Shown here piece by piece: positions 16,208-43,394 of a stretch of 59,494 nt of DNA. Below the pieces are notes generated by a model. The model was not told where the DNA came from. It saw nothing but the letters and a program-made list of their open reading frames with translations, and made no database searches. Every line of letters starts with the position of its first letter. The stretch's first letter is position 1. The DNA lies in assembly GCA_027451445.1 (NCBI GenBank), contig DAIDJG010000296.1, positions 1-59,494 on the forward strand, read 5' to 3'. This DNA is from Singulisphaera sp. Lineage in GTDB: Bacteria; Planctomycetota; Planctomycetia; Isosphaerales; Isosphaeraceae. Both the position numbers and the translations under genes were made by a program.

Positions 16208-17380
<1,173 letters not shown>

Positions 17381-17475
17381 TCACTTCACGCGGCACGGGC
17401 TGTCATGAGGCCGAGTAACCGGCTAACCTGTTGCGAGTCGCGACGATGGCATTCTCTGAATATGGTGTCGACGGC

Positions 17476-18693: not shown

Positions 18694-19314
18694 TCAACCC
18701 TTCTTGCCGATCTGCCCGTTCCGTTCCTCGAGCCTGCGGATCTCGTCTCGGACGAGCTTCTGCACCTTACTCTTGGCGGTATACACGGTCGCGACCAGCA
18801 TATCGAGTTGCACGGCTGCCTGGGCGCCGGAGAGTCCTCGCAGGGCGGTCAAGTCGAACGCCCGCCACTGTTGCTCCGGGACGTGCGTGCGGACATGTCG
18901 GAGGGCAAGTTCAAGCAACTCCTGATCGAACTCGGCTTCCAGTTGCTGGACCAGGCCTTCGCGGGCCTCGACGCTCGCGAGCAGGCGCATCAGAGCGCTG
19001 TCACCACTGCCGAGGTCGGGCTGCCTCTCGGAGTGGAAATCGCAGAGGACGTTCCGTGTGACCACTTTCAACCAGTTACGAAAGCTCAATTCCGGGTCGT
19101 AGCGAAACTCCCTGAGCTTGCCCACGAGTTTCAAGAGTACGGTCTGGGTCACGTCTTCGGCGTCGGCCGGCTGGAGACGATTCGCCAAACAATAGGAGTA
19201 AATGCGATGCCGATAGCGCCCGGTGAACTCCGCCCACGCGGTGGGGTTATTCGGTTCGCTCCTCAGCCTGCCGAGCAGCGTGACATCTGTACTCTCTATA
19301 CCGTCTGGGTGCAT
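18694..19314 (-). CDS. ECF-family RNA polymerase sigma factor
   Basis: This 206-residue sigma factor has region 2 in FTGRYRHRIYSYCLANRL and DAEDVTQTVLLKLVGKLREF, with RNWLKVVTRNVLCDF for -10 recognition. Region 4 is WRAFDLTALRGLSGAQAAVQ followed by VATVYTAKSKVQKLVRDEIRRL. It belongs to the planctomycete ECF group encoded near Ser/Thr kinases. It is the third gene in a minus-strand series after the membrane fusion protein and the zinc-finger kinase, 242 nt downstream of the latter, so it may respond to that kinase. Sigma genes usually precede their kinase; here the order is reversed. Confidence 0.88.
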   Translation of the reverse strand: MHPDGIESTDVTLLGRLRSEPNNPTAWAEFTGRYRHRIYSYCLANRLQPADAEDVTQTVLLKLVGKLREFRYDPELSFRNWLKVVTRNVLCDFHSERQPDLGSGDSALMRLLASVEAREGLVQQLEAEFDQELLELALRHVRTHVPEQQWRAFDLTALRGLSGAQAAVQLDMLVATVYTAKSKVQKLVRDEIRRLEERNGQIGKKG

Positions 19315-21668: not shown

Positions 21669-21731
21669 CGGCTCTGCTCCGAATTCCGCGGCAACCGATC
21701 TGCAACGCCCAGGGTGCCAGAAAGCCGGCGC

Positions 21732-22784
21732 TCATGCGGGGGGGCATTCGATCGCGACATCGACCTCGAGTCCGACCGGGGCGACGAACCCATCGGGCAT
21801 TTCAACGAGAACCTGGATCACGTCCAGGTCCCGGCGTTCGCCCCCGGTTCGGGAAAAGACGGTCTTCTTGCCCATGATCGGCTTGACCACCACGAGCCGC
21901 CCCTCGTACGTCCGTGTTCCGAGGCCACGCCCCACGATCGTCGCTTTCTGACCCAGTCTGAGTGCGGAGACGAAACGCTCGTCAACCTCAGCGCGGATGC
22001 GCAGCCGCGAGACGTCTCCATAGACGAGGACTGCGTCGGAGTCCGAGGACCGCGCCGCTTCACCCTCGCGTCGGAGCACCTCGAGGACCGTGCCATCAAA
22101 CGGGGCGCGAAGGAACGCGTCCTCGCGACGCTCGCGGGCCAGCCCAAGGCGCGCCCGCGCAGCTTCCACTTGGGCCCGTGCGACGCTGCGGTCTTCCGGG
22201 CGCACGAAATGGCGCAAGTGATCCAGCTCGGCTTCAGCCTGCTTGAGCTCCACCTGCCGCTGGGAGTGTTCGGTCATGACCTTGTCGTGCTCCGACGTCG
22301 AGACGGAGGAGCGCGTGAGGAGCGCGGTGTAGCGCCGGTGCTCTTCGGCCTGGTAGCGCGCCTGCTCCTTCAGAAGCTCGACCTTGTGCTCGGCGGCGGC
22401 GATCTGATGCGGGTTCACACCGCTTTCCATCTTCTCTTGATCCGCGATCGCGAGCGCCAGGTCGGCCTCGGCCACCGCGACCGCAGTCACCTGCTCCCGT
22501 CCGTCGAGCTCGACGATCACCTCGCCCCGTTTGAAGGATCGCCCAACCTCCGCGTTGCAGTGCGCGATCACACCGTCGGTCTTGAACGAAAGACGTCTCA
22601 CTTCCGTAACGGGCTCGACGTACCCTACCGCCTGGACCGTGCGTCGCATCGCCGCGGACGCACCCGGAGTTGCCGCATCGACCGGGACGGCGTGTCGGGA
22701 TTGGAGTCCGCCGAGGGTGTAGCTTCTCACGAGGATACACATACTCACGAACAGGAGCAGCAGTCCGATGAGAAGTCTTCTCAT
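21732..22784 (-). CDS. HlyD/DevB-type membrane fusion protein
   Basis: This 350-residue periplasmic adaptor of a tripartite ABC exporter has one N-terminal membrane helix (LLIGLLLLFVSMCILVRSY). The first lipoyl half is VGYVEPVTEVRRLSFKTDG. A long helical hairpin (about 100-215) is rich in Ala, Glu and Arg, and the second lipoyl half is FLRAPFDGTVLEVLRREGE. The beta-barrel domain includes RIRAEVDERFVSALRLGQKA. This is the DevB/MacA layout. The start at 22784 (MRRLLIGL) has GGTGAT upstream. It is divergent from the permease gene by about 350 bp, and the regulatory region between them is likely shared. It is the natural partner of the ABC subunits at 23134-24951. Confidence 0.88.
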   Translation of the reverse strand: MRRLLIGLLLLFVSMCILVRSYTLGGLQSRHAVPVDAATPGASAAMRRTVQAVGYVEPVTEVRRLSFKTDGVIAHCNAEVGRSFKRGEVIVELDGREQVTAVAVAEADLALAIADQEKMESGVNPHQIAAAEHKVELLKEQARYQAEEHRRYTALLTRSSVSTSEHDKVMTEHSQRQVELKQAEAELDHLRHFVRPEDRSVARAQVEAARARLGLARERREDAFLRAPFDGTVLEVLRREGEAARSSDSDAVLVYGDVSRLRIRAEVDERFVSALRLGQKATIVGRGLGTRTYEGRLVVVKPIMGKKTVFSRTGGERRDLDVIQVLVEMPDGFVAPVGLEVDVAIECPPA

Positions 22785-23133
22785 AAGATCACCAAATCCT
22801 ACTGGAATCGGGGGCACGAGGGAGGGTCGGACGTGCGTCGGTATCTGCGCGGGATCGGGCCCGGTGTTGCAGGATACCGGCCGTTGGCAGGTACCTCAGA
22901 ACCGATAAACGCAGGTTATGTTACGGAGAAAGCGGATGAAGGTACAGCCTTCTACTCGCACATTTTCACGCCTTGCACTGGCCTCGATCGACGATCGAAC
23001 GATCGTCCGCCTGATTTTGTGAAGAAATTCGGAAATCGGAAAAAAATCCTGGTAGGTTTCCGCGCGTAGAGGAGTACTGATTGCGTGCTTCACCACCGCG
23101 CCGTGCGGTGCTCCGCTTGTCGAGGGAATCCCG
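22785..23133. promoter_or_regulatory. Divergent promoter region of the exporter/synthase cluster
   Basis: About 350 bp separate the minus-strand adaptor gene from the plus-strand permease gene. No protein-coding frame is convincing. It contains the palindrome at 22989-23006 and an AT-rich patch at 23010-23055 (including ATTTTGTGAAGAAATTC). Promoters for both transcription units are expected here, but I could not assign a confident -35/-10 pair. Confidence 0.55.
22989..23006. promoter_or_regulatory. Operator-like palindrome
   Basis: gacgatcg and cgatcgtc form a perfect 8-bp inverted repeat with a 2-bp spacer, preceded by an extra CGATCG at about 22984. It is the only strong dyad in the divergent region and fits a site for a dimeric regulator. 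CGATCG is a common sequence in GC-rich DNA, so chance cannot be excluded. Confidence 0.45.
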
Positions 23134-24261
23134 TTGCAGCTCGTCGCGGTGAGGATCCTCCTCTACAAGAAGGCCCGTTTTGCCTTCACCACGCTCGGCC
23201 TGGGCATGCTGTTCCTGCTCAGCGTCGCGCAGGTGGGTTTGCTGATTGGGTGGATCAACACGATTACGAACGTAATCCGCCATACCGACGCGGATATCTG
23301 GTTAATGTCGGAGAACAACGTCTCGTGGGACTACGGAGCGGCGATCCCGCGCCACCGTATCTACCAGGCACGTAACGTGGAAGGAGTCGCGCAAACAGAG
23401 GGCGTCTTCGTCGGGTGGAGTTCGTGGAAGAAGCCGAACGGGCAGCGGATCAACGTTCAGATCATCGGTATCGACCGCAATCTGGTCGGCGGCCCCTGGG
23501 CCATGCGCGAGGGCCGGGTCGAAGACGTATTCCTGCCGGACAGTGTCATCGTGGACGAACTGTTCTTGAACGAGCTCGGTGTCACGCGGCTCGGCGAGAC
23601 CTTCGAGTTGCGCAACGCCAGCACGGCGAAGGTTCGGGGAATCTGCCGCGAGGTCCGGACGTTCACGGCATCGCCCTATGTGTTCACCTCAATGAAGAAC
23701 GCGATGACTTACGACTCGTCGTTCCACGACGACGACGCGACGTATGTCCTGGTGCGCTGTGTGCCCGGGGCGGATCCCGACCGGGTCGCGCGCGCCATCG
23801 CCGCGCAGGTCCCCGGCATCGAGGCGCTGACGACGCGCGCGATGATGGTCCGGAGCGTCGTCTTTTGGATGGTGGGGACCGGCATGGGGCTGCTGGTGCT
23901 CACCACGGCGGTCCTCGGCGTTGTGGTCGGGGCTGTGGTCGGGGGCCAGACGCTCTTCAACATCACCCAGGAGAGCCTGGGCCACTACGCGACGCTGCTC
24001 GCGCTCGGGTTCACGCGGCGTCAGATCCTCGCGTGCGTGCTCTGGCAGGGGATGGCACTGAGTGCGCTCGGAGTGCTCCTGGGCGGGTTTGCGTTTCACC
24101 AGCTTGCCCGCGCGAGTGCGAGCACGCCGGCACCGCTGGAAATGACGGCCACCGTCTTTGCCGCCCTCGTGGCCGTGTCGGTTGTGTGCTCGTTGCTGGG
24201 TTCGTTTCTCTCGGTGCGCACGGTACTGCGTATCGATCCCGCCGTCGTTTTTCGAGTTTAG
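23134..24261 (+). CDS. ABC transporter permease, DevC/MacB-FtsX type
   Basis: This 375-residue inner-membrane subunit has TM1 near residues 15-40 (FTTLGLGMLFLLSVAQVGLL), then a periplasmic MacB-type domain (about 45-225). Three further helices follow: FWMVGTGMGLLVLTTAVLGV, LWQGMALSALGVLLGGFAF and FAALVAVSVVCSLLGSFLSV. The loop HYATLLALGFTRRQIL is the coupling region seen in FtsX-like permeases, and the end IDPAVVFRV is typical of DevC. It uses a TTG start with GAGGG upstream. It is the first gene of an eight-gene operon and has its ATPase 3 nt downstream. The cargo is probably the lipid made by the downstream synthase. Confidence 0.88.
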   Translation: MQLVAVRILLYKKARFAFTTLGLGMLFLLSVAQVGLLIGWINTITNVIRHTDADIWLMSENNVSWDYGAAIPRHRIYQARNVEGVAQTEGVFVGWSSWKKPNGQRINVQIIGIDRNLVGGPWAMREGRVEDVFLPDSVIVDELFLNELGVTRLGETFELRNASTAKVRGICREVRTFTASPYVFTSMKNAMTYDSSFHDDDATYVLVRCVPGADPDRVARAIAAQVPGIEALTTRAMMVRSVVFWMVGTGMGLLVLTTAVLGVVVGAVVGGQTLFNITQESLGHYATLLALGFTRRQILACVLWQGMALSALGVLLGGFAFHQLARASASTPAPLEMTATVFAALVAVSVVCSLLGSFLSVRTVLRIDPAVVFRV

Positions 24262-24264
24262 CTC

Positions 24265-24951
24265 ATGAATCCCGTCCTGGAATGCACACAGATTCGTCAC
24301 ACGTTCGGCCGGGGCGAGCTCGCCGAAGACGTGCTGCGCGGCGTGTCGGTCGCGTTCGACGCGGGCGAAACCTGTCTGCTGATGGGTCCTTCCGGGTCGG
24401 GCAAGACGACTCTGCTTTCGATTCTCGGTTGTCTCCTGACGCCCACGGGCGGCCGGTTGGTTGTCAACGGGGAGGTCGTGGATCCGAAGTCGAAGAACAG
24501 GCTCAGCCGGCTCCGTCGCGAGAAGATCGGGTTTGTGTTCCAGCACGCGCAACTCCTTCCGGTCCTGACTGTTCGCGAGAACCTCGATGTGGTCGCACGC
24601 AATGGCGGGCTGTCGGGGCGGTCGCTCCGGCTTCGGGTCGATGGGCTACTGGAACGGCTGGGAATCGCCGCAGTGCGGGCAAAGTGGCCGGATCAACTTT
24701 CAGGCGGTCAGCGGCAGCGAGCTGCGGTGGCCCGCGCGCTTTTGAACCGGCCGACGATCCTCCTCGCCGATGAACCGACCGCCTCCCTCGACTGGGAGCA
24801 CGGCGAGGCCACCGTTCGCCTGCTCGTGGAGCAAGCGAAGCAGGAGGGGGCCCTCCTGCTGGTCGTCACCCACGACACCCGGATGCTTCCCTACTTTCGC
24901 CGCCATCTGCACATTCGGCGTGGGGTCCTTCACGAGGACCGCACGCCGTGA
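24265..24951 (+). CDS. ABC transporter ATPase, DevA/MacB/LolD type
   Basis: This 228-residue ATP-binding subunit has Walker A GPSGSGKTTLL, the Q-loop in GFVFQHAQLL, the signature LSGGQRQRAAVARALL, Walker B ILLADEPTASLD and the switch His in VVTHDTR. It has no fused membrane domain, so it must energise the permease encoded just before it. The stop codon overlaps the GTG start of the next gene by 4 nt, which indicates translational coupling to the acyl carrier protein. An exporter ATPase coupled this tightly to a biosynthetic carrier protein suggests that transport and synthesis are coordinated. Confidence 0.93.
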   Translation: MNPVLECTQIRHTFGRGELAEDVLRGVSVAFDAGETCLLMGPSGSGKTTLLSILGCLLTPTGGRLVVNGEVVDPKSKNRLSRLRREKIGFVFQHAQLLPVLTVRENLDVVARNGGLSGRSLRLRVDGLLERLGIAAVRAKWPDQLSGGQRQRAAVARALLNRPTILLADEPTASLDWEHGEATVRLLVEQAKQEGALLLVVTHDTRMLPYFRRHLHIRRGVLHEDRTP

Positions 24952-25235
24952 AAACGTTGGGCCGTGGGAAGGTCCCCGCGCTGTGCTCAGGAGACTCCGA
25001 AGTGTTGCCACAGCTTGAACGGGTCCAGTCGATCGTCTGCGACGTCGGCCAGATCGCTGCCATCGGCCCGGACGAGGATTTTTACGAGAAAGGATTCTCA
25101 TCGCTCCGCGCGATGGAGCTCCTCCTCGAGCTCGAGACGACCTGCGCGGTGAGCGTTCCGGACGACAAGTTCATCGCCGCACGTACGCCGCGTGCCCTCC
25201 ACGCGCTAATCCTGAAACTCCAACACGGGAGCTAA
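24948..25235 (+). CDS. Free-standing acyl/aminoacyl carrier protein
   Basis: This 95-residue carrier protein has the attachment motif GFSSLRAMELLLELE, where the second Ser (about residue 52) should carry 4'-phosphopantetheine. The Asp normally before it is replaced by Ser. Helix III region is VSVPDDKFIAARTPRALHALI. The first 20 residues may be disordered or may start later. The GTG start overlaps the ATPase stop. It is followed 6 nt later by an amino acid:[carrier protein] ligase-like gene, the same pairing known for such ligases, so it probably carries an amino acid and not an acyl chain. Confidence 0.85.
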   Translation: MKTLGRGKVPALCSGDSEVLPQLERVQSIVCDVGQIAAIGPDEDFYEKGFSSLRAMELLLELETTCAVSVPDDKFIAARTPRALHALILKLQHGS

Positions 25236-25241
25236 CCTCTG

Positions 25242-26420
25242 ATGCCGACGCACACCGTGCGACTCGCCGCTCCCGCCCAGGAGATGGCGCGTGAAGAAAT
25301 CCAGAAGCAGCTCGCATTCCTGGCGCGCGGCGTTCAAAACGTGGTCTTCCTGGATCAGGGCGCTGTGCTCCGGTTCGACACACCTGAGGGGGCGGAGCCC
25401 GCGCTTGCGGATCGAGCGCGCGGCCTTTGCGACCGGGTTCAGAAGAGCCTGCGCAGCCTCACGCGGAAGGTGGTCTATCGAAGCCCCGGACTCGAATCTC
25501 CCGCCTTCCGCAGCGATGGCGCCTTACCCGGCATCGTGCGCCTCGGTACGGGGCAGTTCGCGCTCGAAGGAATTGCGCTCGCGCTGTTCCGCTACTTTGA
25601 TCGTCGGTTCGAGGAGTTGGGCGCCCGCTGGGAACCGCAGCCGCTGCTTACACCAACCCTCATCCCCGCCAGCGTTCTGGCACGTTGCGACTACTTTCGC
25701 TCGTTCCCTCACACGGTCACCTTTGCCTGCCATCTCCCCGAGGATGGCAAGCGGATCGACGACTTCCGGGCTCGCCACCAGGACCGCAACGACCTCGACG
25801 AGCGGGCTCTGCACGACATGGCGGCGCCGGAGGCCTGCCTATCGCCCGCAGTCTGCTACCACGTTTATCACCGAAACCAGGGCCGTCAACTCCCTGTAGG
25901 TCTGACGACCTACGCGGTCTGCGGGAAGTGCTTCCGCTACGAATCGAGCAACATGAACGACCTCCGCCGCCTCTGGGATTTCACGATGCGTGAGGTGGTT
26001 CTACTCGGTGCGAAGCAAGACGTGCTCGATGCCCGCACATGCGGCGTGGACCACGTCGCGCGGTTCCTCAAAGACCACGACCTGGCGGGCGAGATCCGCA
26101 CGGCGAGCGATCCGTTTTTCGTTGCCCCCGATGCGCTGGCGTCCCAGGCCTATTTCCAGCTCACCGCCGAGACGAAGTATGAGATCGCCTTGCGGCTTCC
26201 CGACGACGAGTGGCTGGCGGTGGGCTCGCTGAACTATCACACCGACTTCTTCGGTCGGGCCTTCGACCTGAGCACACATGAGGGCACGCCGGCGCACAGC
26301 GTTTGCCTCGCGTTCGGGCTGGAGCGCTGGGTCCATGCCTTCCTGTGCCAGCATGGGATCGACCCCGCGCATTGGCCCCAGACAGTGAGCCGCGCGCCGG
26401 AATTGCGGCAATGGACCTAA
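25242..26420 (+). CDS. Amino acid:[carrier protein] ligase-like class II synthetase
   Basis: This 392-residue protein resembles a truncated, tRNA-binding-less class II aminoacyl-tRNA synthetase of the atypical SerRS/aaCP-ligase type. These enzymes activate small amino acids and load them on the phosphopantetheine of a carrier protein. Visible features are LSPAVCYHVYHRNQGR, with a Cys in the position of the zinc-binding Cys of that family, and CGKCFRYESSNMNDLRRLWDF, which is class II motif-2-like (FRYES) followed by TMREVVL. A late SVCLAFGLERWVHAF is motif-3-like, with the GLER Arg. No N-terminal tRNA-binding arm is seen. Placement directly after a carrier protein gene and before the synthase supports an amino-acid-loading role. 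The amino acid cannot be predicted. Confidence 0.8.
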   Translation: MPTHTVRLAAPAQEMAREEIQKQLAFLARGVQNVVFLDQGAVLRFDTPEGAEPALADRARGLCDRVQKSLRSLTRKVVYRSPGLESPAFRSDGALPGIVRLGTGQFALEGIALALFRYFDRRFEELGARWEPQPLLTPTLIPASVLARCDYFRSFPHTVTFACHLPEDGKRIDDFRARHQDRNDLDERALHDMAAPEACLSPAVCYHVYHRNQGRQLPVGLTTYAVCGKCFRYESSNMNDLRRLWDFTMREVVLLGAKQDVLDARTCGVDHVARFLKDHDLAGEIRTASDPFFVAPDALASQAYFQLTAETKYEIALRLPDDEWLAVGSLNYHTDFFGRAFDLSTHEGTPAHSVCLAFGLERWVHAFLCQHGIDPAHWPQTVSRAPELRQWT

Positions 26421-26483
26421 TGATCCGCCAAAAACATCGGCCAAGAATACTTGTGATCTTGCGGTACTCCAGGGGTGTTCAGA

Positions 26484-29400
26484 ATGCTTCAGAGCGTGCG
26501 AAAGAGTTCGTTGCCCCTGGGCGAGTATGCGAGCCTCGTAGAGGTCGTCATGGCCCACGCACGCGAGCGCGGTGACGACACTGCGTTCATCGCTCTGGAG
26601 GACGGCGAAGAGGAGGGGGAACGGATCACCTTTGGCACGCTCGACGCCCAGGCGCGGAAGATCGGACATTGGCTGGAGCAGCGCGGACTGACCGGCGAGC
26701 GGGTGCTGTTGCTATACCCGAGCGGTAAGCTCGAGTTCATCCAGGCGTTTCTGGGCTGCGTCTACGCGGGGGCGGTTGCGGTGCCGTGCCACTGGGTGCG
26801 CAAGAGTCGCGGAACGGATCGTCTCGCCGTCCTCTGCGCTGATGCCCAGCCTCGCCTCGTGCTGACGGATGTGGAGTCTCGGCCTTTCGTAGAGCCCCAG
26901 GTGGCCGAGGTTCTGGGTCGAGGCGTGCTGCACTGCCTGACCGAGGAGACGCTCAGCGCAGGGGACAGCCGGTGGGATCCGCCGAAGGCGCGGCGGGAGT
27001 CGCTGGCGCTGCTCCAGTACACGTCCGGCTCGACGCGGTTGCCTCAGGGGGTGATGGTCACACAGGGCAACGTGCTGGCGAACGTAGCCGGAATTCAGGA
27101 GGTTTTTGGACTCACTCCCGCATCGACGGTGGTCAGTTGGTTGCCGTTCTTTCACGATATGGGGTTGATCGGCGGGGTGCTGTCGCCGTTGCTCGTGGGT
27201 GCGACCTCCTGCGTGATGCCGCCGAACGCCTTCGTGCAACGGCCGCTCCGCTGGCTGCGGGCGATCACCCGCTATGGCGCCACGCACTCCGGCGGCCCGA
27301 ATTTCGGTTATGACGCCTGCGTCAGGAGCGTCCGCAGCGAGGATCTCACGGGGCTCGACCTGAGTCGTTGGGAGGTTGCGTGGAACGGAGCGGAGCCGAT
27401 CCGGCACCGGACCCTGGAAGACTTCACCCGACGATTCGGGCCTTGCGGCTTCCGGCGTGACGCTCATTTCCCCTGTTACGGTCTGGCGGAAGCGACGCTG
27501 ATGGTCACCGGAGCGCGCGCCGGGCAGGGAGCACGCGCGTTTTCGGTCCGTTCCAGCTCACTGCGCGCTCAACGCTTCGAGCCCTGCACGGCGGAAGGCG
27601 ATGACTACCAGTTCCTCGTGAGCTCCGGACACGTGTTCCGTGACGAGGTCGTGCGGATCGTCAACGCGGACGGCCAGCGTGTGTGTCGTCCCGGGGAAGT
27701 GGGAGAAGTCTGGGTTTCCGGTCCATCCGTCGCGAAGGGGTACTGGAATAATCCTGAAGCCACGAGCGCGACATTTGCCGCCCGGCTCGCCGAACTCGGC
27801 CCTGCCCCGTTCCTGCGTACCGGCGACCTGGGTGTGCTCCATGATGGCGAGCTATTGATTACGGGCAGGTTGAAGGATTTGATCATCATTCGGGGTGTTA
27901 ACCTACATCCGCAGGATGTCGAAGCCACGGTCGAAGAGGCTTGCGACGACCTGCAATCGCATGCCGTCGTGGCCTTCGCCACGGAGGCTGAGACGGCCGA
28001 GGATCTGACGCTCGTTTGCGAGGTGAAACGGACGCGTTTGCGCACGGTCGACCGCGACGAGCTCTTTCGGCGCGTCCGCGCGTCGGTGGCCTCGGAACAT
28101 CAGGTGGCCGTCGGCAGGATCGTGCTGGTCAAGCCTCTCGATGTACCGCTGACGTCCAGTGGGAAGCCCCAGCGCCGGAAGTGCGCCGAGTTGCTCGCCA
28201 GCGGAGGGTTTTCGATCTTGACGGAGTGGCGGCGAACGGGCGTCTCCTTCCAAGCGGTCGAGACGCTGTCCCGGCCTCGGACGCGCGCCGAGCTGCGCGA
28301 CGCACTCGCGTCGGCACTCTCCGGCCTGCTCGCCCTGCCGCGTCAGGAACTGATTCGAAACCGGCCTTTTTCAGCGCTTGGGATGGACTCCGTCCAGGCC
28401 GTCGAGGTCAGTGCCTCCCTGGGCGGTGCATTCGAGCGCAGGTTGCCGGCGACGCTGCTGTTCGATCATCCTGACCTGAACGTGCTCACCGAATTCATCG
28501 CGGGAACGATTCTCGATCTTCCGATTGAACCGTCGCGCACGCTGGAACCCGGCGTGCCGGCGGGTGTCGCGTCTCGCGTTGCCGAGACCCGGATCGCGGT
28601 TGTCGGGCTTGCATGCCGTTTTCCGGGGGCGCGCGACTTCGACGCGTTTTGTGACCTCTTGCAACAGGGGCGGGACGCGATCCGGGAGGTTCCAACGGAC
28701 CGGTGGGACCCACGGGCCATAGACGGTCTCAACGGCGCGACATGCCTGCGTGGGGGCTTTCTGGAGGACATCGATCAGTTCGACGCAAGCTTCTTTGGAA
28801 TCTCACCGCGCGAGGCGGCGAGCATCGACCCGCAGCATCGCCTGCTGCTGGAGGTGAGCTGGGAAGCGCTCGAGGACGCGGGACTCATGTCCGACCGCCT
28901 CGGCGCCAGCCGTTCCGGCGTGTACATGGGTTTGAGCACGCACGACTACGGCCAACTCCTCTGCAAGCGCCGCGCGGAGGAAGCCGACGCGTATCTCGGA
29001 GTTGGCGCGTCGTCGAGCGCCGGTGTCGGTCGGATTAGCTACGCGCTTGGGTTCCAGGGGCCGAGCGTTGCGGTCGATACGGCGTGCAGTAGTTCTTTGA
29101 CCGCCGTGAATCTCGCATGTCAGGCGCTCGACCGAGGCGAGTGCGACCTCGCGCTGGCTGGCGGTGTGAACGCGTTGCTCGACCCAACTTTACATGTCGC
29201 GCTTTTGCGGGCGAAGATGCTGGCGCCTGATGGGCGCTGCAAGACGTTCGACGCATCGGCCGATGGCTACGGCCGATCGGAAGGTTGTGGCGTGGTTGTG
29301 CTCAAGCGGCTTCGCGACGCGGAGCGCGATGGGGACCGCGTCCTCGCCGTCATTCTCGGGGGCGCGGTGAATCATAACGGGACATCCGGCGGGTTTACGG

Positions 29401-32400
29401 TCCCCTCGGGTAACGTGCAGGAGCGGCTCCTCGCCGACGCACTCCAACAGGCGAACAGCGCGCCCGCGGAAATGGCGTATCTTGAGTGTCACGGCACGGG
29501 TACCTCGCTCGGCGACCCAATCGAGGTCGCTGCGGCTGCGAAGGTGCTGGGCGAGGGTCGCGCCTCGGATCGGCCGTTGCTCCTCGGCTCGGTGAAGTCG
29601 AACCTCGGCCATCTGGAGGCCGCGGCCGGGATCGCCGGCCTGCTGAAGGTCATCGCCGCCTTCCGGCAGGATCAGATTCCGCGGCACCTGCACGTAGCTC
29701 GCCCTAATCCACACATCCCCTGGCACGAGCTACCCGTCCGTATCGCGACGGAACCGACGGCCTGGCCGGCCGGCCGCCGGCTTGCGGGTGTGAGCAGCTT
29801 CGGATTCACGGGGACGAATGCTCACGTCGTGGTCGAGGCGCCGGACAGCCCGTCGCCCGCTCGCGATGAACGCGAAAGCTCGCCGCGCGTGCTCGTCCTC
29901 TCAGCACGGACCGAGGCGGCTCTGCACGCGCAAGCGAGGAACCTCGCGACCTGGTTGAGCGAGAGGCCGGAAACTCCGCTCGCGGGCGTTTGCCACACGC
30001 TCGGCATTGGCCGCAAGCACTTCGAGTACCGAGCGGCGATCGTCGCGACGACCGTCGCCGAGGCCCTCGCAGGGTGCTCGGCCCTTGCCACGAGTGCGGT
30101 GCATCCCGACGTGTTCGTCGGCCGCTCGGTGGAACCTCCGCGAGTGGCCTGGCTATTCCCGGGAACGTGCGAGGGCGCTCTCGGAATGGCGGGTACCTTG
30201 TACGACCGCTTCGCGGTCTTCAGGCAATCCATCGATCGGCTCGTCGGGATGATCGCCGCGCACACTGGCACGGAAACCGCATCGATTCTCGATTTCCCGA
30301 GGTCGGATCTTGGCCTCTTCAGCCTGGAGATCAGTTTGGCTGAGCTCTGGCGCTCGTTCGGCCTTGAGCCCGATCTCGTGTTCGGTGGTGGGATGGGAGC
30401 GCTCGCCGCCTGCTACGTTGCCGGCGGCCTATCCCTGGAGGATGCCGTACGTCTCGCGATCTGCAGGACAGAGCAGACGCCTGACGTCGCCCTCTTACCG
30501 CTCCGGCGTCCAATGCTCCTGCTCCACGCCGCCGGGACAGGCGACTGGATGAACGCGGGCGAGAAACCAGAGCCGATGCTCGATGTGTTCCTCAGCCGAG
30601 AGCCCGCGGACTGGTCCCGCCTTACGCCAATCGTGGCGCGGCGACGATGCGACGTCCTTTTGCCAATCGGAGCAGACACCGGCGATCTGGCCAGCCTCAT
30701 CGGACACTGGCCTTCCGACGCGATCAGGCCCGTCATGCTAGATTGCCTATGCGCTGAGATGGGCGCGATCGGTACGCCTGATGCGTTCACCCCCCACGCA
30801 AGCGGGAGAAAAAATAACTCCCCCGCTTGGGAAGGGGGGGTGGGGAGTCAGCGCTCGTCACCGCCCGATCCCGTTGTCCTTGAACCATCGAACGCCGCAG
30901 AACGGTTCGGGGCGAAGAGGCCGCCATCGGACGGCCACTCCCCACCCCCCCAACCCCCCCTTCCCAAGGGGGGGAGTTATCTGGAATTACCCCCGACCGG
31001 CGCCCGCGGTGATATCCGCTTCGCGAACCACTTCGCGCAACTCTACTCGCTGGGCTGCCGCTTCGACTTCGCGGCCTGGGACCGCGACGAATCCCCGCGA
31101 CGGCTCGCTCTGCCAACGTACCCGTTCCAACGAACGCGCCATTGGTTCGAGCACCGCAAAAGCCCCACGCGCCCTGATAATGAGGTCACGCGACTCGACC
31201 TGGCCTCGGGGGAGACGATCATTCAACGCACCGTCTCGGCCCGCTCCTTGTGCTTCCTCAGAGACCACCACATCTACGGTACGATGATCGTCCCGGGCGC
31301 CCACTTCCTCACACTCGCCTTGGACGAGTTCCGCGCCTCATTTCAACTTGTGGACATTGGACTCCAGGAACCGATTCTGGTTCCCGAAGGCGACGAGCGC
31401 ACGCTCGAATTCCTCATCCGCCCCGTCGACTCGATGGGCGAGCGGACGTTCCGCTTCGCGACGCGCTCCGCCTCCAACACCAGCGCAACGGCGTGGTCAA
31501 TCCATGGCCAGGGGCGCGTCCGCATGCGTGAAGAAGCACATGAATCACTTCCCGGCCGATTTGCCCTCGAATCCTGGATATCACACCGCAGCGCGCGGAA
31601 GGGCTCCGAACTGTACGCCGACCTTAATGCACTCGGGCTCCAGCTCGGGCCAGCCTTCCGTCTGATCCAAACCATCTGGTCGGGTGACCGCGAAGCTCTG
31701 GCCGAGTTAATCGTGCCCGGCCACAATCAGACCAACGATTGCGGTGCGATCATCCCGACTCCGGTCCTCGACGCGTGCTGCCAGGTCATTGCCGCGCTGG
31801 AGCAGGACAGCCCAGAACGTTCGCTGTTCCTGCCGACCCACTACGAGCGCTTTGCCGTCTTCGGTCCCATTCCGGCGCGTTTCTACTGCCACGCGCGAGT
31901 CCGGCCTGAAGGGTCGGGTCGGGACGTGCTCGTGACGGACTTGACCCTGCTCGACCCCGATGGCGAGGTGTTCGGCTGCGTCCTCGGCTTCCAGGTGCGA
32001 CGGGCGCCTCGCGCGGCCTTGCTCCGCAACCTGAGAGGCTCGGACGATCGCGCCGCGGGGACAGCGCTTGCCGAGGCGGAAACAGCCGCCAGCCTGCGCG
32101 AGGCTCTCGCCACATCCGAAGATCGACATGCGGTCCTGGTCCGGGTCCTTCAGACCGAAGTGGCCCGCGTTCTCGAGCTGTCCGGCCCCGACGATGTTCC
32201 GGGCGATCAACCCATGGCGGACTTGGGCGTCGATTCGCTGATGGCGAGCGAATTTCGCGACGTCGTGGAAAAACGGCTCGGCCAGAGCGTTCACGTCACG
32301 ACGTTCTTCGATCACCCCACTCTGGACGGCCTCGCCCGCCACTTGCTCGATCATGTCATCACAAGCTTGCCGTCGCGGAACGGCGTTTCCCCGAAACCGG

Positions 32401-34916
32401 CCCCCGAACCGCGCCCGGCGCCGCGTCGCACCCGGTCGAACGACGAACCGATCGCGGTGATCGGCCTGGCGTGCCGGTTTGCGGGACAGGCCGGGGATCT
32501 CGGTGGATTCTGGAAGCTTTTGGAGGCTGGCGGCTCGGTCGTTGGCACATGTCCACCGGGGCGTTGGGACGGCGACGACGTATTCCCGGCAGAGATGGTC
32601 GAGGAGAGTGAGGGCGGACCGTGCGGGGCCTTCCTTGACGATGTCGGGCGCTTCGACGCGGGCTTCTTCGGGCTGTCGGACGAAGAGGCGGAGCGCATCG
32701 ATCCCCAGCAGCGCCTTTTGATGGAGGTTGCCTGGTCAGCCCTGGAGCACGCGGGAATCGTCCCGGCGCAGCTCGTTGATAGTGCGACGGGTGTGTTTAT
32801 CGGCATCGGTCCCAACGAGTACTACCGACGCGCGGGCAGCGGAGTGGACGCGTTCCTCGCGATGGGCAATGACAACAGTGCGGCGCCTGCCCGGCTCTCG
32901 CATCATCTCGGACTGACCGGGCCAAGCCTGGCGATCAACACGGCCTCGTCGTCCGCCCTGGTTGCCGTGCACCAGGCCTGCGCGGCACTCCGGCGTGGGG
33001 AATGCAACCTCGCGCTCGTCGGAGCCGTCTACCTGCTCGTGTCGCCGCTTCAGTTCCAGGCACACGACAAGATTGGAGTCCTCTCCCGGCGCGGGGTGTG
33101 TCGCAGCTTCGACCGTGACGCCGACGGCATGGTCCTCGGCGAGGGCGGCGGCGTACTCGTGCTCAAGCCGCTTCGCGAGGCGGAGGCCGACGGCGACGCG
33201 ATCTGGGCCGTGATCCCCGGGACGGCGGTGAACCACAACGGCCAGAACAGCCCCATGCTGGGCGCCCCGAGCGTCATTGCGCAGGAGCGCCTCATCCGTC
33301 AAGCTCTCAACGAGGCGGACCTGACTCCCGACGACCTCTCCTACGTCGAGGCCCAGGGGAGCGGCACACCGGTCGGCGACCTGATCGAGTTGCGAGCCCT
33401 GGAGAACGTCTTTGGCCAAACCCCGCGCTCCGGACCGCCCCTCCTCGTCGGCTCGGCGCATTCGAACATCGGCCATACGGCCTGGGCCGGTGGGATCGCG
33501 GGGGTTATCAAGACGATTCTTCAGATGCATCATGGACGTGTTGTCCCCACAGCCAACTTTCGCGGCACGAACGAGCGGATGGCTCGCCGAATGCGCGCAT
33601 TGGAGATCGCGGCGGAGCTCCAGCCCTGGATCCCTGGTGGTACCCCGAGGCGAGCCGGCGTCAGCTCGTTCGGGGTGAGCGGTATCAACGGGCATGTCCT
33701 CCTCGAAGAGGGACCCCAGACCTGGAACTCGGCCGCCTCTGCGCCCTTCGCCCCGTACCACGTCTTCAGCCTCAGCGCACGCAGTTCCCATGCGCTGAAG
33801 CGACTGGCGCGTGCATACATCGGGCTCCTGAAAGACGAATCGATCGCCCTCGACACCATCTGCCGAAGGCTCCTTCGTGACCGAACGCACTTCCAGCACC
33901 GCCTGACCGCCGTCGTTGGAACAGCCGAGGAACTCACCAACGCCCTGGAAGCGTACGTTCGGGGCGAACCGTCGCCACGGCTCGTTGCGAGCGAGGCACA
34001 ACCTCTCGCCAGGGTTGCCTTCCTGTTCGACGGGCTCGTGCCCCCATTTCCGCGCATGGGCAGAGAGCTCTTCGAGACTCAACCCGTCTTCGCCGCCGCC
34101 GTCCGGGAATGTGACGAGATCCTCGGCGACGAGCTGCCCGTACGCCTGCTCTCGGTCCTCTACCCCGAGCGGGGGCGCTCGCGCTTGCAGCACGAGCCCG
34201 CGTTCGCCGAGTTGCTGTTGTTCACCCTCGGGCACGCCCTGGCCGAGATGTGGCGCTCGTGGGGGGTTGAGCCGGATGTCGTCGTCGGCCACGACGCCGG
34301 CGTCTTCGCCGCCGCCCGCGTTGCCGGGGTCCTGTCGCTTGCCGACGCGCTGAGGCTCGTCGCGGCCCATGGCCGCTTCCGTCAAGCTCACCTTGTGAAC
34401 GCGCCATCCCGCGCGGATCGCATGGCTCAAGCGGCTCGTGAGTTTGAGATTTTGCTGCACGACGTCGTCCTGAATCCACCGCGGATCCGCGTGGTCTCGA
34501 CGGCCAGTCAAGGACCGGGCAAGGAGATTGACTCGGTCCTCCACTGGACCGAAACCCTAGCCCAGCCGTCGACGTTTGGGCTCGATGGAGCGCTCAGGGG
34601 CCTGGCGGAAGAGCGGATCGCGCTGATGCTCGATTTTGGTGCCGGCGCGAGCCCAACACCCGAAGGCTCGTACCCAACGATCCCGCGGCAGTCCGTCCTA
34701 CGGGAACACGAGCACTCCTGGCAGACCGTATTGCGGGCTGCCGCCGAAATGCACACAAGGGGCGTCACGATCGACTGGAAAGCCCTCGTCCCGCCCGCCG
34801 GGCCCGTGCGGCTCACTTTGCCGAGCTACCCCTTCGAAGGACGGCGTCTCTGGCTCGAGCGCGACGGGTCCGACCGATCCTCCAGGGCGTCCCGACTGGA
34901 GGCTCAACTTCAGTGA
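26484..34916 (+). CDS. Giant hybrid FAAL-polyketide synthase (FAAL-ACP-KS-AT*-DH-ACP-KS*-AT*)
   Basis: This 2810-residue type I synthase has the following domains in order. FAAL is at about 15-595 ([30 protein letters not shown]). ACP1 carries Ser636 ([11 protein letters not shown]). KS1 is at about 700-1120 with Cys868 (DTACSSSL), HGTGT and KSNLGH intact. AT1 is at about 1140-1430, but its GHSxG motif is GGGMG at 1301-1305. DH is at about 1560-1850 with His1595 and Asp1763 in place. ACP2 carries Ser1918. KS2 is at about 1988-2412 with Ser2155 in place of Cys and Gln2291 in place of the first His. AT2 is at about 2425-2795 with GHDAG (Asp2604 for Ser). There is no KR, ER or TE. The start at 26484 has AGGGG upstream. 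It likely extends a fatty acid activated by FAAL. Confidence 0.92.
30814..30980. mobile_element. Palindromic repeat element inserted in the polyketide synthase gene
   Basis: The left arm from ataactcccc through ggggtggggagt (30814-30848) is the inverted copy of the right arm from actccccacc through ggggagttat (30937-30980), the latter with a small extra C-rich insert. The core is about 88 bp. The translated product across 30786-30985 is low-complexity ([24 protein letters not shown]), unlike any AT sequence. The synthase frame continues past it into [14 protein letters not shown], the normal post-AT segment. Similar elements lie at 7155-7258 and 10839-10884. Confidence 0.78.
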
Positions 34917-34950
34917 TCGCCAATCGAACCAGAAGAGGATGGCGACGATC

Positions 34951-36087
34951 ATGTCTGTATTCCTAACGGGGGCGACCGGTTTTCTCGGCGGCTACGTGAC
35001 CGCGCGCTTGCTGGAGTTGCCCGGGCCGGCACTCACCCTGCTCGTCCGTGCCAGCGACCGCGATGAGGCCATCGGGCGCCTTTGGAGAGCGCTTCAGTTC
35101 CACGCGAGCTCCGACCGGTTCCGGGAATGGCTGCACACTCGCATCCGCATCGTTGCCGGCGACATCACCCTTCCAAGTTTCGGTCTCAACCATCCAGACT
35201 GGCACGAGCTGGCGTGCTCGATCGACTCCGTCATTCACCTCGCGGCCACGCTCAACCACCGGTCCGAAAAGCTCTGTCTCAATGTGAACCTTCGCGGCAC
35301 GCTCGAAGTGATCCGGCTTGCGCAGGTCGCTGATGCCGACCACGGTCTGCGGCGCTTCAGCCATGTGAGCACGACCACCGTTGCGGGGATCCGCCAGGAC
35401 GAGGTCGTCGCAGAAGACCGCGCGATCGAGTGGGATCGCTCGGATCACGATCCCTACGCGCGCACGAAGAAGTTCTGCGAGCACATGGTCACGACGCTTC
35501 TGCCTCACGTGCCGCGCACGATCTTCCGGCCGAGCGTTGTCCTTGGTGACAGCCGCCGGCCGGAGACGACCCAGTTCGACCTTGTCCGGGCGTTCGCCTT
35601 CTTTTCCCGGCTCCCCGTCGTTCCGCTGCGCGGCGACGACCGAATCGACATCGTCCCGGCCGACTACGTGGCCGACGCAATCGTGGCACTCCACGGCAAG
35701 ACCCATCCGCTGCACGAGATTTATCACCTGACATCGGGGACTGGCTCGGAGACCTTCAGCGCCATCATGACCGCGCTGTGCGCCCGGCCGACCTTCGCTC
35801 CCTGGCTCCGATCTCCTTGCGCCTGGGGCGTTCGCCGGGTTTCGGAGTGGCGAGGAACGCAGATAGGGCGGGTCGCGTCTCTGATCCGCGTGTTCCTGCC
35901 TTACATGCTGGCCAACACGGTGTACGACAACCGGCGGGTTGTCGACGAGCTGGGTCGCCGGCCTCCGCCGTTCTCGGGCTACTGTGCGGAGCTCCGGGAT
36001 TTCGCCCTGCAGCACAAGTTTCATTACCCCTACACACCGCTTCTGGCTGCGGATTCGGCCGTCATGACGACGGAGAGGGTGGTTTGA
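34951..36087 (+). CDS. Thioester reductase-like SDR (NAD-binding-4 family)
   Basis: This 378-residue NAD(P)H-dependent extended short-chain dehydrogenase is of the thioester-reductase family, which releases carrier-bound acyl chains as aldehydes or alcohols. The cofactor loop is VFLTGATGFLGGYVTARLL. VIHLAATLNH, NLRGTLEVIRLA and the catalytic pair in DPYARTKKFCEH (Tyr and Lys) follow, then TIFRPSVVLGDS. The C-terminal 120 residues hold the variable substrate domain. It lies 34 nt after the synthase, which has no thioesterase, so reductive release is the obvious role. ATG at 34939 is an alternative start; I prefer 34951 because of AGAGG about 12 nt upstream. Confidence 0.86.
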   Translation: MSVFLTGATGFLGGYVTARLLELPGPALTLLVRASDRDEAIGRLWRALQFHASSDRFREWLHTRIRIVAGDITLPSFGLNHPDWHELACSIDSVIHLAATLNHRSEKLCLNVNLRGTLEVIRLAQVADADHGLRRFSHVSTTTVAGIRQDEVVAEDRAIEWDRSDHDPYARTKKFCEHMVTTLLPHVPRTIFRPSVVLGDSRRPETTQFDLVRAFAFFSRLPVVPLRGDDRIDIVPADYVADAIVALHGKTHPLHEIYHLTSGTGSETFSAIMTALCARPTFAPWLRSPCAWGVRRVSEWRGTQIGRVASLIRVFLPYMLANTVYDNRRVVDELGRRPPPFSGYCAELRDFALQHKFHYPYTPLLAADSAVMTTERVV

Positions 36088-36088
36088 T

Positions 36089-37741
36089 ATGAACATCGTG
36101 AGCGACATCCTCGAACGTCTCGCGGCATTCCCCGAGCACCCCGCACTCAGCGAGGTCGTCAAGGGCGCCCTGCACGCGACGACTGCAGGAAAGCTGCTGG
36201 ACGCGGTCAACGCGGCCCGCAACCTTCTGGCCGAACGTGGCTTCCGCCCCGGCGATCGTTGCGCCTTGATCGGCCCGAACGGTCCGGCCTGGTGCGCGGC
36301 CTGTCTCGCGGTCCTGGCCGAAGGCGGCGTGCTCGTACCGCGTTACCATCGACAGGCCGTCTCCGAGGTACTCCCGTCGCTGCGCGATGCCGACCCAGCG
36401 GTGATCTGGTGCGGGAGCGCTGCGCTGCGCGACGAAATCGGCACCCTCTGGTACGACGCCCCACCGGTGCTCCTCCTCGATGAGATCCTCTCGACCGCGC
36501 CGGACGTTTCTCGGGTTGGGGGGTTGACAAACGTCGACCCTACGGCGCCAGTCGCGATCTTCTACACATCGGGATCAACGGGCGAGCCCAGGGGTGCGGT
36601 CCTGACCGCTGAAAACGTCGACTTCATCCTCACGCGAACCTCCGACCTGGTCCGGCGCTGGCTCGCTGGCATCGCCCCAGCCGAGCTGCGGGTTTTCCAC
36701 TACCTGCCCCTTTGCTTTGTCGGCTCCTGGGTCAACGTTCTGATCGCACTCCGGATGGGGTATCGGCTGATCTTCGGTACCGACCTCGACCGCCTGGCCG
36801 CTGATATCGCGCTCACCCAGCCGCATTACTTTCAGAACGTCCCCATCGTCCTGGAGCGCTTCCGGACCGGAATCACGCGTCACATCGTGGGGGCGGGCCG
36901 CGTCCCGAGGCTTCTGTTCCGCGAGGCCGGCGCAGCCTGGTCGCGTAAGGCGTCGGGGATGTCGAGACCACTCGACCCGATCCGGCTCGGGCTGGCTCGG
37001 GCGCTTCTGTTCGCGAAGGTGCGGCGACGATTCGGACAGGACCTGCGCGCACTGATCTCCGGGTCCGCGACGCTCGCGGCCGACGTGCAGTCGTTCTTCG
37101 AGATGCTCGGCATCCCTGTCGTTCAGACATATGGACTCAGCGAAACGGCCGCCATCTGCACGATCCACCCGCCTGGTGAGGGCGTGCCCGGGACGGTGGG
37201 CTTCGCGCTGGAGGGGGTCGCGATGCGTCTCGGCGACGACCAGGAGATCCTCGTCCGCGGCCCGAACGTGTTCGCCGGCTACTGGCAGAGACCGGAGGAG
37301 ACTGCCGAGGCGTTCAGCGGCGGTTGGTTCCGTACCGGCGACCAGGGTGAAGTCGACAGCGCGGGCCGCTGGCGGATCACGGGGCGGATCAAGAACATCA
37401 TCGTGACCTCCGCCGGCCACAACGTCAGTCCGGAGCCGATCGAGGACGCACTCCGCCGCCACCTGCCGACCGCGGAGCACGTTGTCGTCCTCGGCGACGA
37501 TCGGAAGCACATCATCGCGGTCGCCACGGGCCAGGTCACGTCTGCGCAAGTGGAGGCTTCGGTGTCGGCGGTCAACGCGAGTCTTCCCCACTACAAGCGG
37601 ATTTACTCGCACCACATCAGCCCGGTTCGCTTCACGGTGGAGAACGGCATGCTCACAGCCACCCACAAACTCAACAGGCGGGCGATCGAGGCGTTTGTGT
37701 CGACCTCGCTCGAAGCTGCAAACGCGAGCGGCCCGGCGTGA
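36089..37741 (+). CDS. AMP-forming acyl-CoA/acyl-ACP synthetase
   Basis: This 550-residue ANL-superfamily ligase resembles long-chain fatty acyl-CoA synthetases. The motifs are IFYTSGSTGEPRGAVLT (P-loop), VQTYGLSETAAICT, GGWFRTGDQGEV and RITGRIKNIIVTSAGHNVSP. The terminal THKLNRRAI carries the catalytic Lys. It starts 1 nt after the reductase stop with GGAGAGGG upstream. It is distinct from the FAAL domain of the synthase, so the cluster has two acid-activating enzymes. One may prime the synthase and the other may activate a second acyl chain or recycle the reductase product after oxidation. Confidence 0.88.
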   Translation: MNIVSDILERLAAFPEHPALSEVVKGALHATTAGKLLDAVNAARNLLAERGFRPGDRCALIGPNGPAWCAACLAVLAEGGVLVPRYHRQAVSEVLPSLRDADPAVIWCGSAALRDEIGTLWYDAPPVLLLDEILSTAPDVSRVGGLTNVDPTAPVAIFYTSGSTGEPRGAVLTAENVDFILTRTSDLVRRWLAGIAPAELRVFHYLPLCFVGSWVNVLIALRMGYRLIFGTDLDRLAADIALTQPHYFQNVPIVLERFRTGITRHIVGAGRVPRLLFREAGAAWSRKASGMSRPLDPIRLGLARALLFAKVRRRFGQDLRALISGSATLAADVQSFFEMLGIPVVQTYGLSETAAICTIHPPGEGVPGTVGFALEGVAMRLGDDQEILVRGPNVFAGYWQRPEETAEAFSGGWFRTGDQGEVDSAGRWRITGRIKNIIVTSAGHNVSPEPIEDALRRHLPTAEHVVVLGDDRKHIIAVATGQVTSAQVEASVSAVNASLPHYKRIYSHHISPVRFTVENGMLTATHKLNRRAIEAFVSTSLEAANASGPA

Positions 37742-37794
37742 GAGATCGGGCCAAGCACAAGAACAATCCACGAACCGCCTGGTGAGGAATAACT

Positions 37795-39129
37795 GTGACG
37801 ATGACACGTACCATCGAGACGCTTGGCCAGAGCCTCTCTCTCGACGATCCGTTCTTCCCAGCGCACCTATCGGAGCGACTGCTGAGCTTCGTTCGCTTGT
37901 TCCGAGAGTGCGGCGACGTCTTTCCGGTCCGCTTGCCCGGCTCAGCGGGTGAGGCGATTGCCGTCTGTCATCCCGACCTGGCGGCACACATCCTCGTGCG
38001 TAAATATCAGTCGTACAGGAAGGGTCAGGGATACGGCCAGATGCGCCTGTTGCTGGGCAACGGCGTGATCACGCTCGACGGCGACCGCTGGAGGCAGCAG
38101 CGCCGAATTCTCCAGCCGGTCTACGCTCGCGCTCAAGCCGCGGAGCGGCTCCCCGCGCTCGCAGAATTGCCGAATGAGCTCGCTACGTCCTGGTTGTCGG
38201 CGGCCGACCGCGGCGAGTTCGTCGACGTGACGCGCGACGTGTCGCAGCTCACCTTCTCACTGATCATGACGCTCCTCTGCGGCGATGACTACCAGCGGAT
38301 CCGAGGGACGGCGATGGAGGACCGGTTCAGTCGGATCGCCACATCGAGCGATCGTGACCTCGACTTCGTTCACAGTTTCGCCATGCCGGTCCGCGCGACC
38401 TTGTTCGATTGGATCGAGCGCCGCGTGGAGAACGGCGAGACGCACAACGACCTGCTCCACGTCCTCATCGCCGCGCGTGACCCCAGGACCGGGTTGCCGA
38501 TGGCCGAGGAACAGATTCTCGATGAATGCCTCACATTTATTGTCGCGGGTGTCGAGACCACCGCAACGACGCTCTCGTGGCTGTGGTACTATCTCGCCCA
38601 GTCGCCTGAGGCAGAGCTCGCGTTACTTGCCGAATTGGCACGGGGATCCGAGTCGTTCGCACTCGGTTCGTCCGTCGCGCAGCTCCCCTACATCCGGCAA
38701 GTTGTCTACGAGACCATGCGCCTCTTTCCTCCGGTCTGGGTCTATCCGCGGATCGCGTTAGAGGACGATCTCTTGAATGGCGTCCCGGTACGTGCGGGTG
38801 CAAACGTCCTCATCGTGACCTACCTCATCCACCGCCACCCGGACTTCTGGAACGAGCCCCAGCGCTTCTGCCCTGACCGCTTTGCGGGAGACGCCATGTC
38901 TCCCGCGTTCCTGCCGTTCTCGCTTGGTCCTCGGCGCTGTTCGGGCGAGGACTATTCCCTGGCCTTGATGGACATGATTCTCCGTACCATCGTTCCGCGT
39001 CTGGCCCTCCAACCGAGCGGCGATCCATTTCCCGATCTCGTGGCCGAAATCAACCTTCGCCCCGCCCGATCGATCCGCCTCCGACCTCAAAGGCGCGTCA
39101 CTCAACCGGCTCGGTCCGACGACGATTGA
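37795..39129 (+). CDS. Cytochrome P450
   Basis: This 444-residue haem-thiolate monooxygenase has the I-helix oxygen-binding motif FIVAGVETTATTLSW, the K-helix ExxR in VVYETMRLFPPVW, and the haem loop LPFSLGPRRCSGEDYSLAL with Cys382 as axial ligand. It has no N-terminal membrane anchor or fused reductase, so external redox partners are needed. It is the last gene of the operon, 53 nt after the ligase, with GGTGAGGA before a GTG start. The sequence resembles P450s of the CYP102/110/4 fatty-acid hydroxylase side of the family by eye. Hydroxylation or epoxidation of the lipid product is the likely role. Confidence 0.9.
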   Translation: MTMTRTIETLGQSLSLDDPFFPAHLSERLLSFVRLFRECGDVFPVRLPGSAGEAIAVCHPDLAAHILVRKYQSYRKGQGYGQMRLLLGNGVITLDGDRWRQQRRILQPVYARAQAAERLPALAELPNELATSWLSAADRGEFVDVTRDVSQLTFSLIMTLLCGDDYQRIRGTAMEDRFSRIATSSDRDLDFVHSFAMPVRATLFDWIERRVENGETHNDLLHVLIAARDPRTGLPMAEEQILDECLTFIVAGVETTATTLSWLWYYLAQSPEAELALLAELARGSESFALGSSVAQLPYIRQVVYETMRLFPPVWVYPRIALEDDLLNGVPVRAGANVLIVTYLIHRHPDFWNEPQRFCPDRFAGDAMSPAFLPFSLGPRRCSGEDYSLALMDMILRTIVPRLALQPSGDPFPDLVAEINLRPARSIRLRPQRRVTQPARSDDD

Positions 39130-39268: not shown

Positions 39269-41506
<2,238 letters not shown>

Positions 41507-42459: not shown

Positions 42460-42808
42460 ATCGTTGGCACCTCTCTGATTGCAGATAAACGAACGGTCGA
42501 GCAAGCGTCCTGCTCGCCGCTCGGCCCAAGGCGCCGATGTGCGGTTATCGGGCTTGCGTTGTGTTCTGTTGCGCCCCGAGTAGCGGCAACCCGCGCGGCG
42601 ATACGCCACGGGGATTTCAAAAACCGAGCGATATTTCCGGTCATGCACCTACCGCAGCGTGCTAACCACCCGACCTTGACCCTGCACCGGCGTCGTGCTC
42701 CGATATTCGTGAGGGAAATCTTCCAGGCTCTGTGGCGGCAGTGCCGGGGAGATTCCGCTTCTGGGAAAAGTGACCCCGTTCGCGGTTCGAACTGACGCGG
42801 AAGACGCG

Positions 42809-43393: not shown

Positions 43394-43394
43394 C

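Follow-up and report, generated by a model that had tools for sequence, protein, structure and literature searches.

A composite planctomycete locus with a partly disabled FAAL-polyketide synthase, an aminoacyl carrier pair and a DevBCA-like exporter, possibly for an amino-acid-bearing envelope lipid

The proximity of genes for acyl activation, aminoacyl transfer, reductive release and export in a Singulisphaera sp. genome raises the question of whether they serve one pathway and, if so, what that pathway would make. The window, by which we mean the whole 59,494-nucleotide stretch analyzed, corresponds to contig C296 in an assembly of 10.88 Mb and 622 contigs, with an estimated completeness of 96% and contamination of 4.8%. 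ORF calling and Pfam and NCBIfam scans place eight genes on the plus strand in the order permease, ATPase, free acyl carrier protein (ACP), amino acid:[carrier protein] ligase, polyketide synthase (PKS), thioester reductase (TR), acyl ligase and cytochrome P450, with the adaptor gene of the exporter divergent on the minus strand, exactly as a sequence-only reading had described them. The intergenic gaps in run order are 3, -4, 6, 54, 22, 1 and 53 nt, counting the 22 nt upstream of TR to the ATG at 34939; the gap before the PKS is 63 nt from an ATG at codon 3, and that before the P450 is 59 nt from its ATG, in agreement with the earlier range of minus 4 to 63 nt. Acyl activation, the aminoacyl carrier and tripartite ABC export do lie together in one tight run, as had been claimed. 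All frames carry the strong GC3 signal typical of real genes, and GC content (58-68%) is even across the contig, so nothing in it marks the locus as a foreign fragment. The locus is a composite of known parts, drawn from unlinked cassettes and including a partly disabled PKS. The reading that we favor, tentatively and with somewhat less than even confidence, is a composite operon that would make a reductively released, amino-acid-bearing lipid and move it to the envelope.

The run ends with the P450. A katG gene at 39293 begins 163 nt further on, is not tightly coupled to the run, and was rejected as an operon member because of that gap and its ordinary KatG product; a search of the same-genus genome G001, run without a control, found no KatG homologue. 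At the other end, a plus-strand ORF (21093-23069) was interpreted as a shadow of the kinase and adaptor genes that it overlaps. A consensus sigma-70 promoter was not found, terminator signals did not rise above chance, and the scans for Rfam features and tRNAs were empty. Elsewhere in the window lie a weak neutral-ceramidase-like protein (14650-16110; PF04734, 30.6 bits against a cut-off of 32.1) with esterase and GDSL lipase genes near it (16208-18639), two large Ser/Thr kinases (19557-21668 and 43122-46709), one with an FGE-sulfatase domain and one with TPRs, both near sigma-70-type factor genes (18694-19314 and 41785-42648), and an 899-aa protein with an M10 (matrixin) peptidase domain (46790-49489).

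The exporter has a tripartite composition, with a separate HlyD/DevB-like periplasmic adaptor (21732-22817, minus strand; Pfam HlyD_D23, 1.2e-12), a DevC-like permease of the MacB/FtsX type (23134-24261, plus strand; MacB_PCD and FtsX) and a DevA/LolD-like ATPase (24265-24951, plus strand). The DevB, DevC and DevA models match below their curated cut-offs (90.8 versus 129, 88.4 versus 290 and 190.5 versus 295.8 bits, respectively), and DevB is the second-best match of the adaptor. Five permease orthologues (41-53% identity) occur in four genomes, with the next best matches at 33% or less; the adaptor orthologues (41-45%) stand beside the orthologous permease and ATPase genes, and the ATPase orthologues share 51-57%. 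The exporter forms a clade of its own. Where the contig permits, the relatives have all three genes in the order permease-ATPase-adaptor, whereas the adaptor of the window is divergent. An alpha-oxoamine synthase of the BioF/SPT family lies directly upstream of the exporter in two genomes, and in a third the exporter adjoins a fatty acyl-AMP ligase (FAAL), an unknown gene and a methyltransferase; other neighbors are hut genes (a second copy, one genome) and an IS66 transposase (one genome). The alpha-oxoamine synthase and FAAL neighbors fit a cargo of acyl or amino lipids, toward which the evidence leans, with a genomic context that is not constant among relatives. The earlier proposal of lipo-amino acid export remains a reasonable conjecture.

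The amino acid would come from the free ACP (24948-25235, plus strand; Ppant motif GFSSL; PF00550, 5.2e-11) and the adjoining class II aminoacyl-tRNA synthetase (aaRS)-like ligase (25242-26420, plus strand; NF005479, 152 bits; PDB 3mey, 7.3e-29), which is predicted from its family to aminoacylate a carrier rather than tRNA. Alignment with Bll0957 (3mey) shows conservation of the Cys, Glu and Cys positions and of the motif-2 Arg; the zinc ligands of Bll0957 we take to be Cys131, Glu176 and Cys279. Like the Bll0957-family ligases, the window enzyme keeps the zinc ligands and motif 2 and has its own carrier gene next to it, but it forms a subfamily below the NCBIfam cut-off (152 versus 357 bits), has a longer N terminus and adjoins a PKS. 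Orthologues at 54-64% occur in four genomes of the same family and three of another, and a carrier gene adjoins the ligase in the orthologous loci examined. These loci lack the PKS, reductase and exporter seen here; one has a stand-alone ketosynthase nearby (L013). In four loci the pair is preceded by a hexapeptide-repeat acyltransferase (mutual similarity 53-71%), and glycosyltransferase genes lie near some of the pairs, so the usual role in relatives is probably aminoacyl transfer to a sugar. The trio of hexapeptide acyltransferase, ACP and ligase at L007:16384-17441, L011:4373-6572, L193 and L194 may be a cassette that aminoacylates polysaccharides.

The reductase and acyl ligase have a different home. 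TR (34939-36087, plus strand; PF07993, 1.2e-44) is a short-chain dehydrogenase (SDR) of the thioester-reductase type that matches the R-domain model TIGR01746 at 9.1e-41, below its full-length cut-off. Its closest PDB match is the MxaA release domain (4u7w; 8.6e-25), and the Thr and YxxxK residues are kept, which makes the reductive release proposed earlier plausible; compared with the MxaA and Nrp domains, TR is stand-alone, without a carrier domain of its own. It is followed by an acyl-CoA/ACP ligase with an AMP-binding_C_3 domain (36089-37741, plus strand; PF00501, 2.5e-51) and by the P450 (37795-39129, plus strand; PF00067, 4.6e-55), in which AGxETT, ExxR and FxxGxRxCxG are intact. Same-class relatives have distant TR homologues only (about 34%); closer ones occur in Acidobacteriota (54-60%) and in other families of Planctomycetota (47-57%), where the TR-linked acyl ligase is 38-51% identical to that of the window. 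There the gene belongs to a fixed cluster of HAD-fatty acyl reductase (HAD-FAR), TR, a polysaccharide-pyruvyl-transferase-like protein, acyl ligase, enoyl-CoA hydratase, ACP, AMP-ligase and DAG kinase. Among the 80 TR loci fetched, scored where the flank was long enough, the pyruvyl-transferase-like gene adjoins TR in 73 of 73, the acyl ligase follows in 64 of 64, and the reductase precedes TR in 61 of 63; a ketosynthase, exporter, aminoacyl ligase or P450 like those described here occurs in none of the 80. The window TR falls inside the reductase clade of this cluster (support 100/99), with an unsettled placement within it. The window locus shares TR and the acyl ligase with the cluster, in the same order and on the same strand, but none of its other genes, and neither HAD-FAR nor pyruvyl-transferase-like genes were found in this genome.

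By domain content alone, the eight-gene cluster resembles the elb ether-lipid genes of Myxococcus xanthus (PMC9131029). The elb set joins a HAD protein, a FAR-ACS-ACP-AGPAT protein and an SDR; this set is not together at the window locus, and no HAD-FAR homologue was found in the genome. At L064:7479-18357, and also at L182, L183, L185 and L187, the fixed cluster looks like an elb-type ether-lipid pathway. At L103, a metagenome-assembled genome labelled Acidimicrobiia carries a reductase that groups with those of Acidobacteriota, through either transfer or mis-binning.

None of the other genomes searched has the full locus, the search covering the ligase in 99 relatives and 398 genomes of the class, the reductase in 392 genomes of the phylum and in a contig collection of 84,980 species (for close relatives only), and the permease and P450 in 298 genomes of the class, where the strict P450 cut-off (1e-70) shows only that there is no close homologue. 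Related genomes do hold homologues of the parts, but not in combination, an outcome that the sequence-only reading had named as refuting it and that partly undercuts it. No description of such a locus was found in the literature searched, and its composition is new within the genomes and literature covered. The run might instead hold two neighboring pathways, in which the exporter and the ACP-aminoacyl ligase pair decorate an envelope polymer or lipid while the PKS, TR, acyl ligase and P450 make an unrelated fatty aldehyde or alcohol. The separate cassette that the pair forms near polysaccharide-type genes in relatives speaks for this, as does the origin of TR and the acyl ligase in another cassette. 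However, the genes overlap or nearly abut on one strand, the pair sits inside the run, and the Pfam scan revealed neither a glycosyltransferase nor a hexapeptide transferase among the genes of the run. We consider two pathways unlikely.

The synthase itself (26475-34916, plus strand; 2813 aa) has the domain order FAAL-ACP1-KS1-AT1-DH-ACP2-KS2-AT2 by Pfam and NCBIfam, and the earlier "hybrid PKS" label hides a second ketosynthase (KS) and two acyltransferases (ATs) without catalytic residues and the lack of a ketoreductase (KR). The FAAL domain (26475-28229; PF00501, 1.9e-64; FAAL subfamily models), ACP1 (28281-28544; GMDSV), KS1 (28587-29834), the dehydratase (DH; 31197-32021) and ACP2 (32145-32345; GVDSL) keep their motifs. 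KS1 retains DTACSSS, ECHGTGT and NLGH, with the Cys-His-His triad intact, and DH retains the ten-residue HxxxGxxxxP and, as LDACCQ, DxxxQ. We judged the KS and AT residues against the KS-AT regions of eight aligned planctomycete PKSs and looked for the motifs in a wider set as well. KS2 (32457-33707) reads NTASSSA for DTACSSS, EAQGSGT for ECHGTGT, and NIGH; it has lost the cysteine and the first histidine, leaving Ser-Gln-His. In place of the GHSxG present in all eight homologues, AT1 (29892-31139) has GGGMG and AT2 (33762-34904) has GHDAG; the HAFH region is missing from both, in AT2 through a large internal deletion. All residues lost from AT1, AT2 and KS2 are retained by the eight homologues. 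The domain scans found no KR, enoylreductase (ER), thioesterase (TE) or C-terminal ACP in the PKS, and the Pfam scan found no KR in the adjoining operon genes. A hidden KR between AT1 and DH was looked for and not found, the stretch consisting of truncated AT1 and an inserted repeat, and an intact second extension module is ruled out by the missing catalytic residues.

Besides the two ACPs, FAAL, KS1 and DH are thus the only domains predicted to be catalytically intact. At most one KS would be able to condense, and if it condenses at all, malonate and any ketoreduction would have to come from elsewhere, the former because of the dead ATs and the latter for want of a KR. The idea of an "extended" lipid is accordingly weak, with a single intact KS and no working AT. 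The FAAL-ACP-KS-AT order is that of FAAL-PKS loading modules such as that of G001 (FAAL 44-45%, KS 53-54%), from which the window PKS differs in the degeneracy of both ATs and KS2. The repeat in AT1 is a 167-bp inverted-repeat element (30814-30980), inserted in frame, with 32-nt arms that are 94% complementary and a single-strand folding z score of -6.8. Its core has 13 matches in the genome and none in four relatives, and the element resembles a MITE-type insertion that the domain would tolerate. Copies of its 14-nt core are likewise present close to KS genes of contig C505 (L022, L030).

These losses might mean that the synthase is decaying, with the PKS serving only as a FAAL-ACP loader and scaffold, KS1 perhaps idle, and the product a simple fatty aldehyde or alcohol or an aminoacyl lipid. 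Three of the four KS and AT domains are dead, there is no KR, and a repeat lies in AT1; yet KS1 and DH keep their motifs, and the frame is open across 2813 codons with strong GC3. Decay seems to us about as doubtful as two separate pathways.

In the composite operon that we prefer, FAAL would adenylate a fatty acid and load it onto ACP1, and KS1 would elongate it by one or a few malonyl units at most, supplied in trans since both ATs are dead. Any ketoreduction would also occur in trans before DH acts, the locus having no KR, and the chain would end on ACP2; the C-terminal KS2-AT2 would carry out no condensation and might play a part in structure or in transfer. The SDR reductase would free the chain as an aldehyde or alcohol, the aaRS-like ligase would charge the free ACP with what may be a small amino acid, and an enzyme other than those assigned would presumably join the amino acid to the lipid through an amide or ester bond. 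The P450 could hydroxylate the chain, the acyl ligase could activate a second acid or recycle the product, and the DevBCA-like pump would move the lipid, its putative substrate, to the outer envelope. What the sequences show directly is which gene families are present, which catalytic residues are kept or lost, how the genes are ordered and that the cassettes have separate homes; the order of the reactions, the identity of the amino acid, the way it is attached to the lipid and the cargo of the pump we infer. Support comes from the tight co-directional spacing of the eight genes, the motifs kept in FAAL, KS1, DH and both ACPs, the Bll0957 zinc site and motif 2 in the ligase, the match of TR to NRPS/PKS release domains, the alpha-oxoamine synthase (two genomes) and FAAL (a third) beside exporter relatives, and the kinship of TR and the acyl ligase to genes of a lipid-type cluster that also holds a fatty acyl reductase, an ACP, an AMP-ligase and a DAG kinase. 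Against it count that neither a condensation nor an N-acyltransferase domain that could form an amide was found at the locus, that the relatives' ligase-ACP pairs have glycosyltransferase or hexapeptide acyltransferase genes nearby, which suggests a sugar acceptor, that the whole locus was seen once and so has no comparative support as one pathway, and that hut genes and an IS66 transposase also occur next to exporter relatives. A bolder variant, which we regard as improbable, makes KS2 (Ser-Gln-His) and the serine-less AT2 a new non-condensing transfer domain that would hand the acyl chain held by ACP2 over to the aminoacyl group of the free ACP, the aaRS-like ligase and pseudo-KS replacing an NRPS module; the N-acyl aminoacyl thioester would then be reductively released and exported.

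The sequence-only reading had likened the locus to heterocyst glycolipid (HGL) synthesis and export, a likeness that holds loosely and fails as a close HglE analogy. HGL export by DevBCA-TolC is established (PMC6161253), and here too a type I PKS-like synthase adjoins a DevBCA-like exporter, which likely shares the role of moving lipid to the outer envelope. According to PMC3098273, HGL and Pfa-type secondary lipid synthase clusters contain KS, ACP and KR; this locus has no KR. Its PKS is instead FAAL-loaded, with a dead second KS and AT, and it adds an aminoacyl ligase-ACP pair and a P450, lacks a glycosyltransferase and has an exporter below the Dev cut-offs. A second, HglE-like PKS, accompanied by a DevC-like permease in divergent orientation, lies separately on contig C537 of this genome (G000; L146) and in relatives (L144, L147), namely in genomes G017 and G010, both of which also have an ATPase at 44-45%. 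We rejected HglE membership of the window PKS because it has no KR and the genome holds this distinct HglE-like PKS. That the locus is a planctomycete HglE/DevBCA-type locus is most improbable, despite the established HGL export by DevBCA-TolC and the matches of its transporter genes to Dev family models, given the missing KR and glycosyltransferase, the Dev scores below cut-off, and the distinct HglE-like PKS and permease on C537 and in relatives.

If the composite operon is read correctly, a lipid pathway would have been joined from cassettes that normally reside in different settings: a sugar-type aminoacyl donor, an ether-lipid-like reductase-ligase pair, a FAAL-PKS and a DevBCA-like pump. 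Should the ligase feed the lipid, a PKS would receive its amino acid from an aaRS-derived enzyme, with no NRPS involved. The links of the exporter clade to alpha-oxoamine synthases and FAAL also offer a testable guess at what this planctomycete envelope pump may carry.
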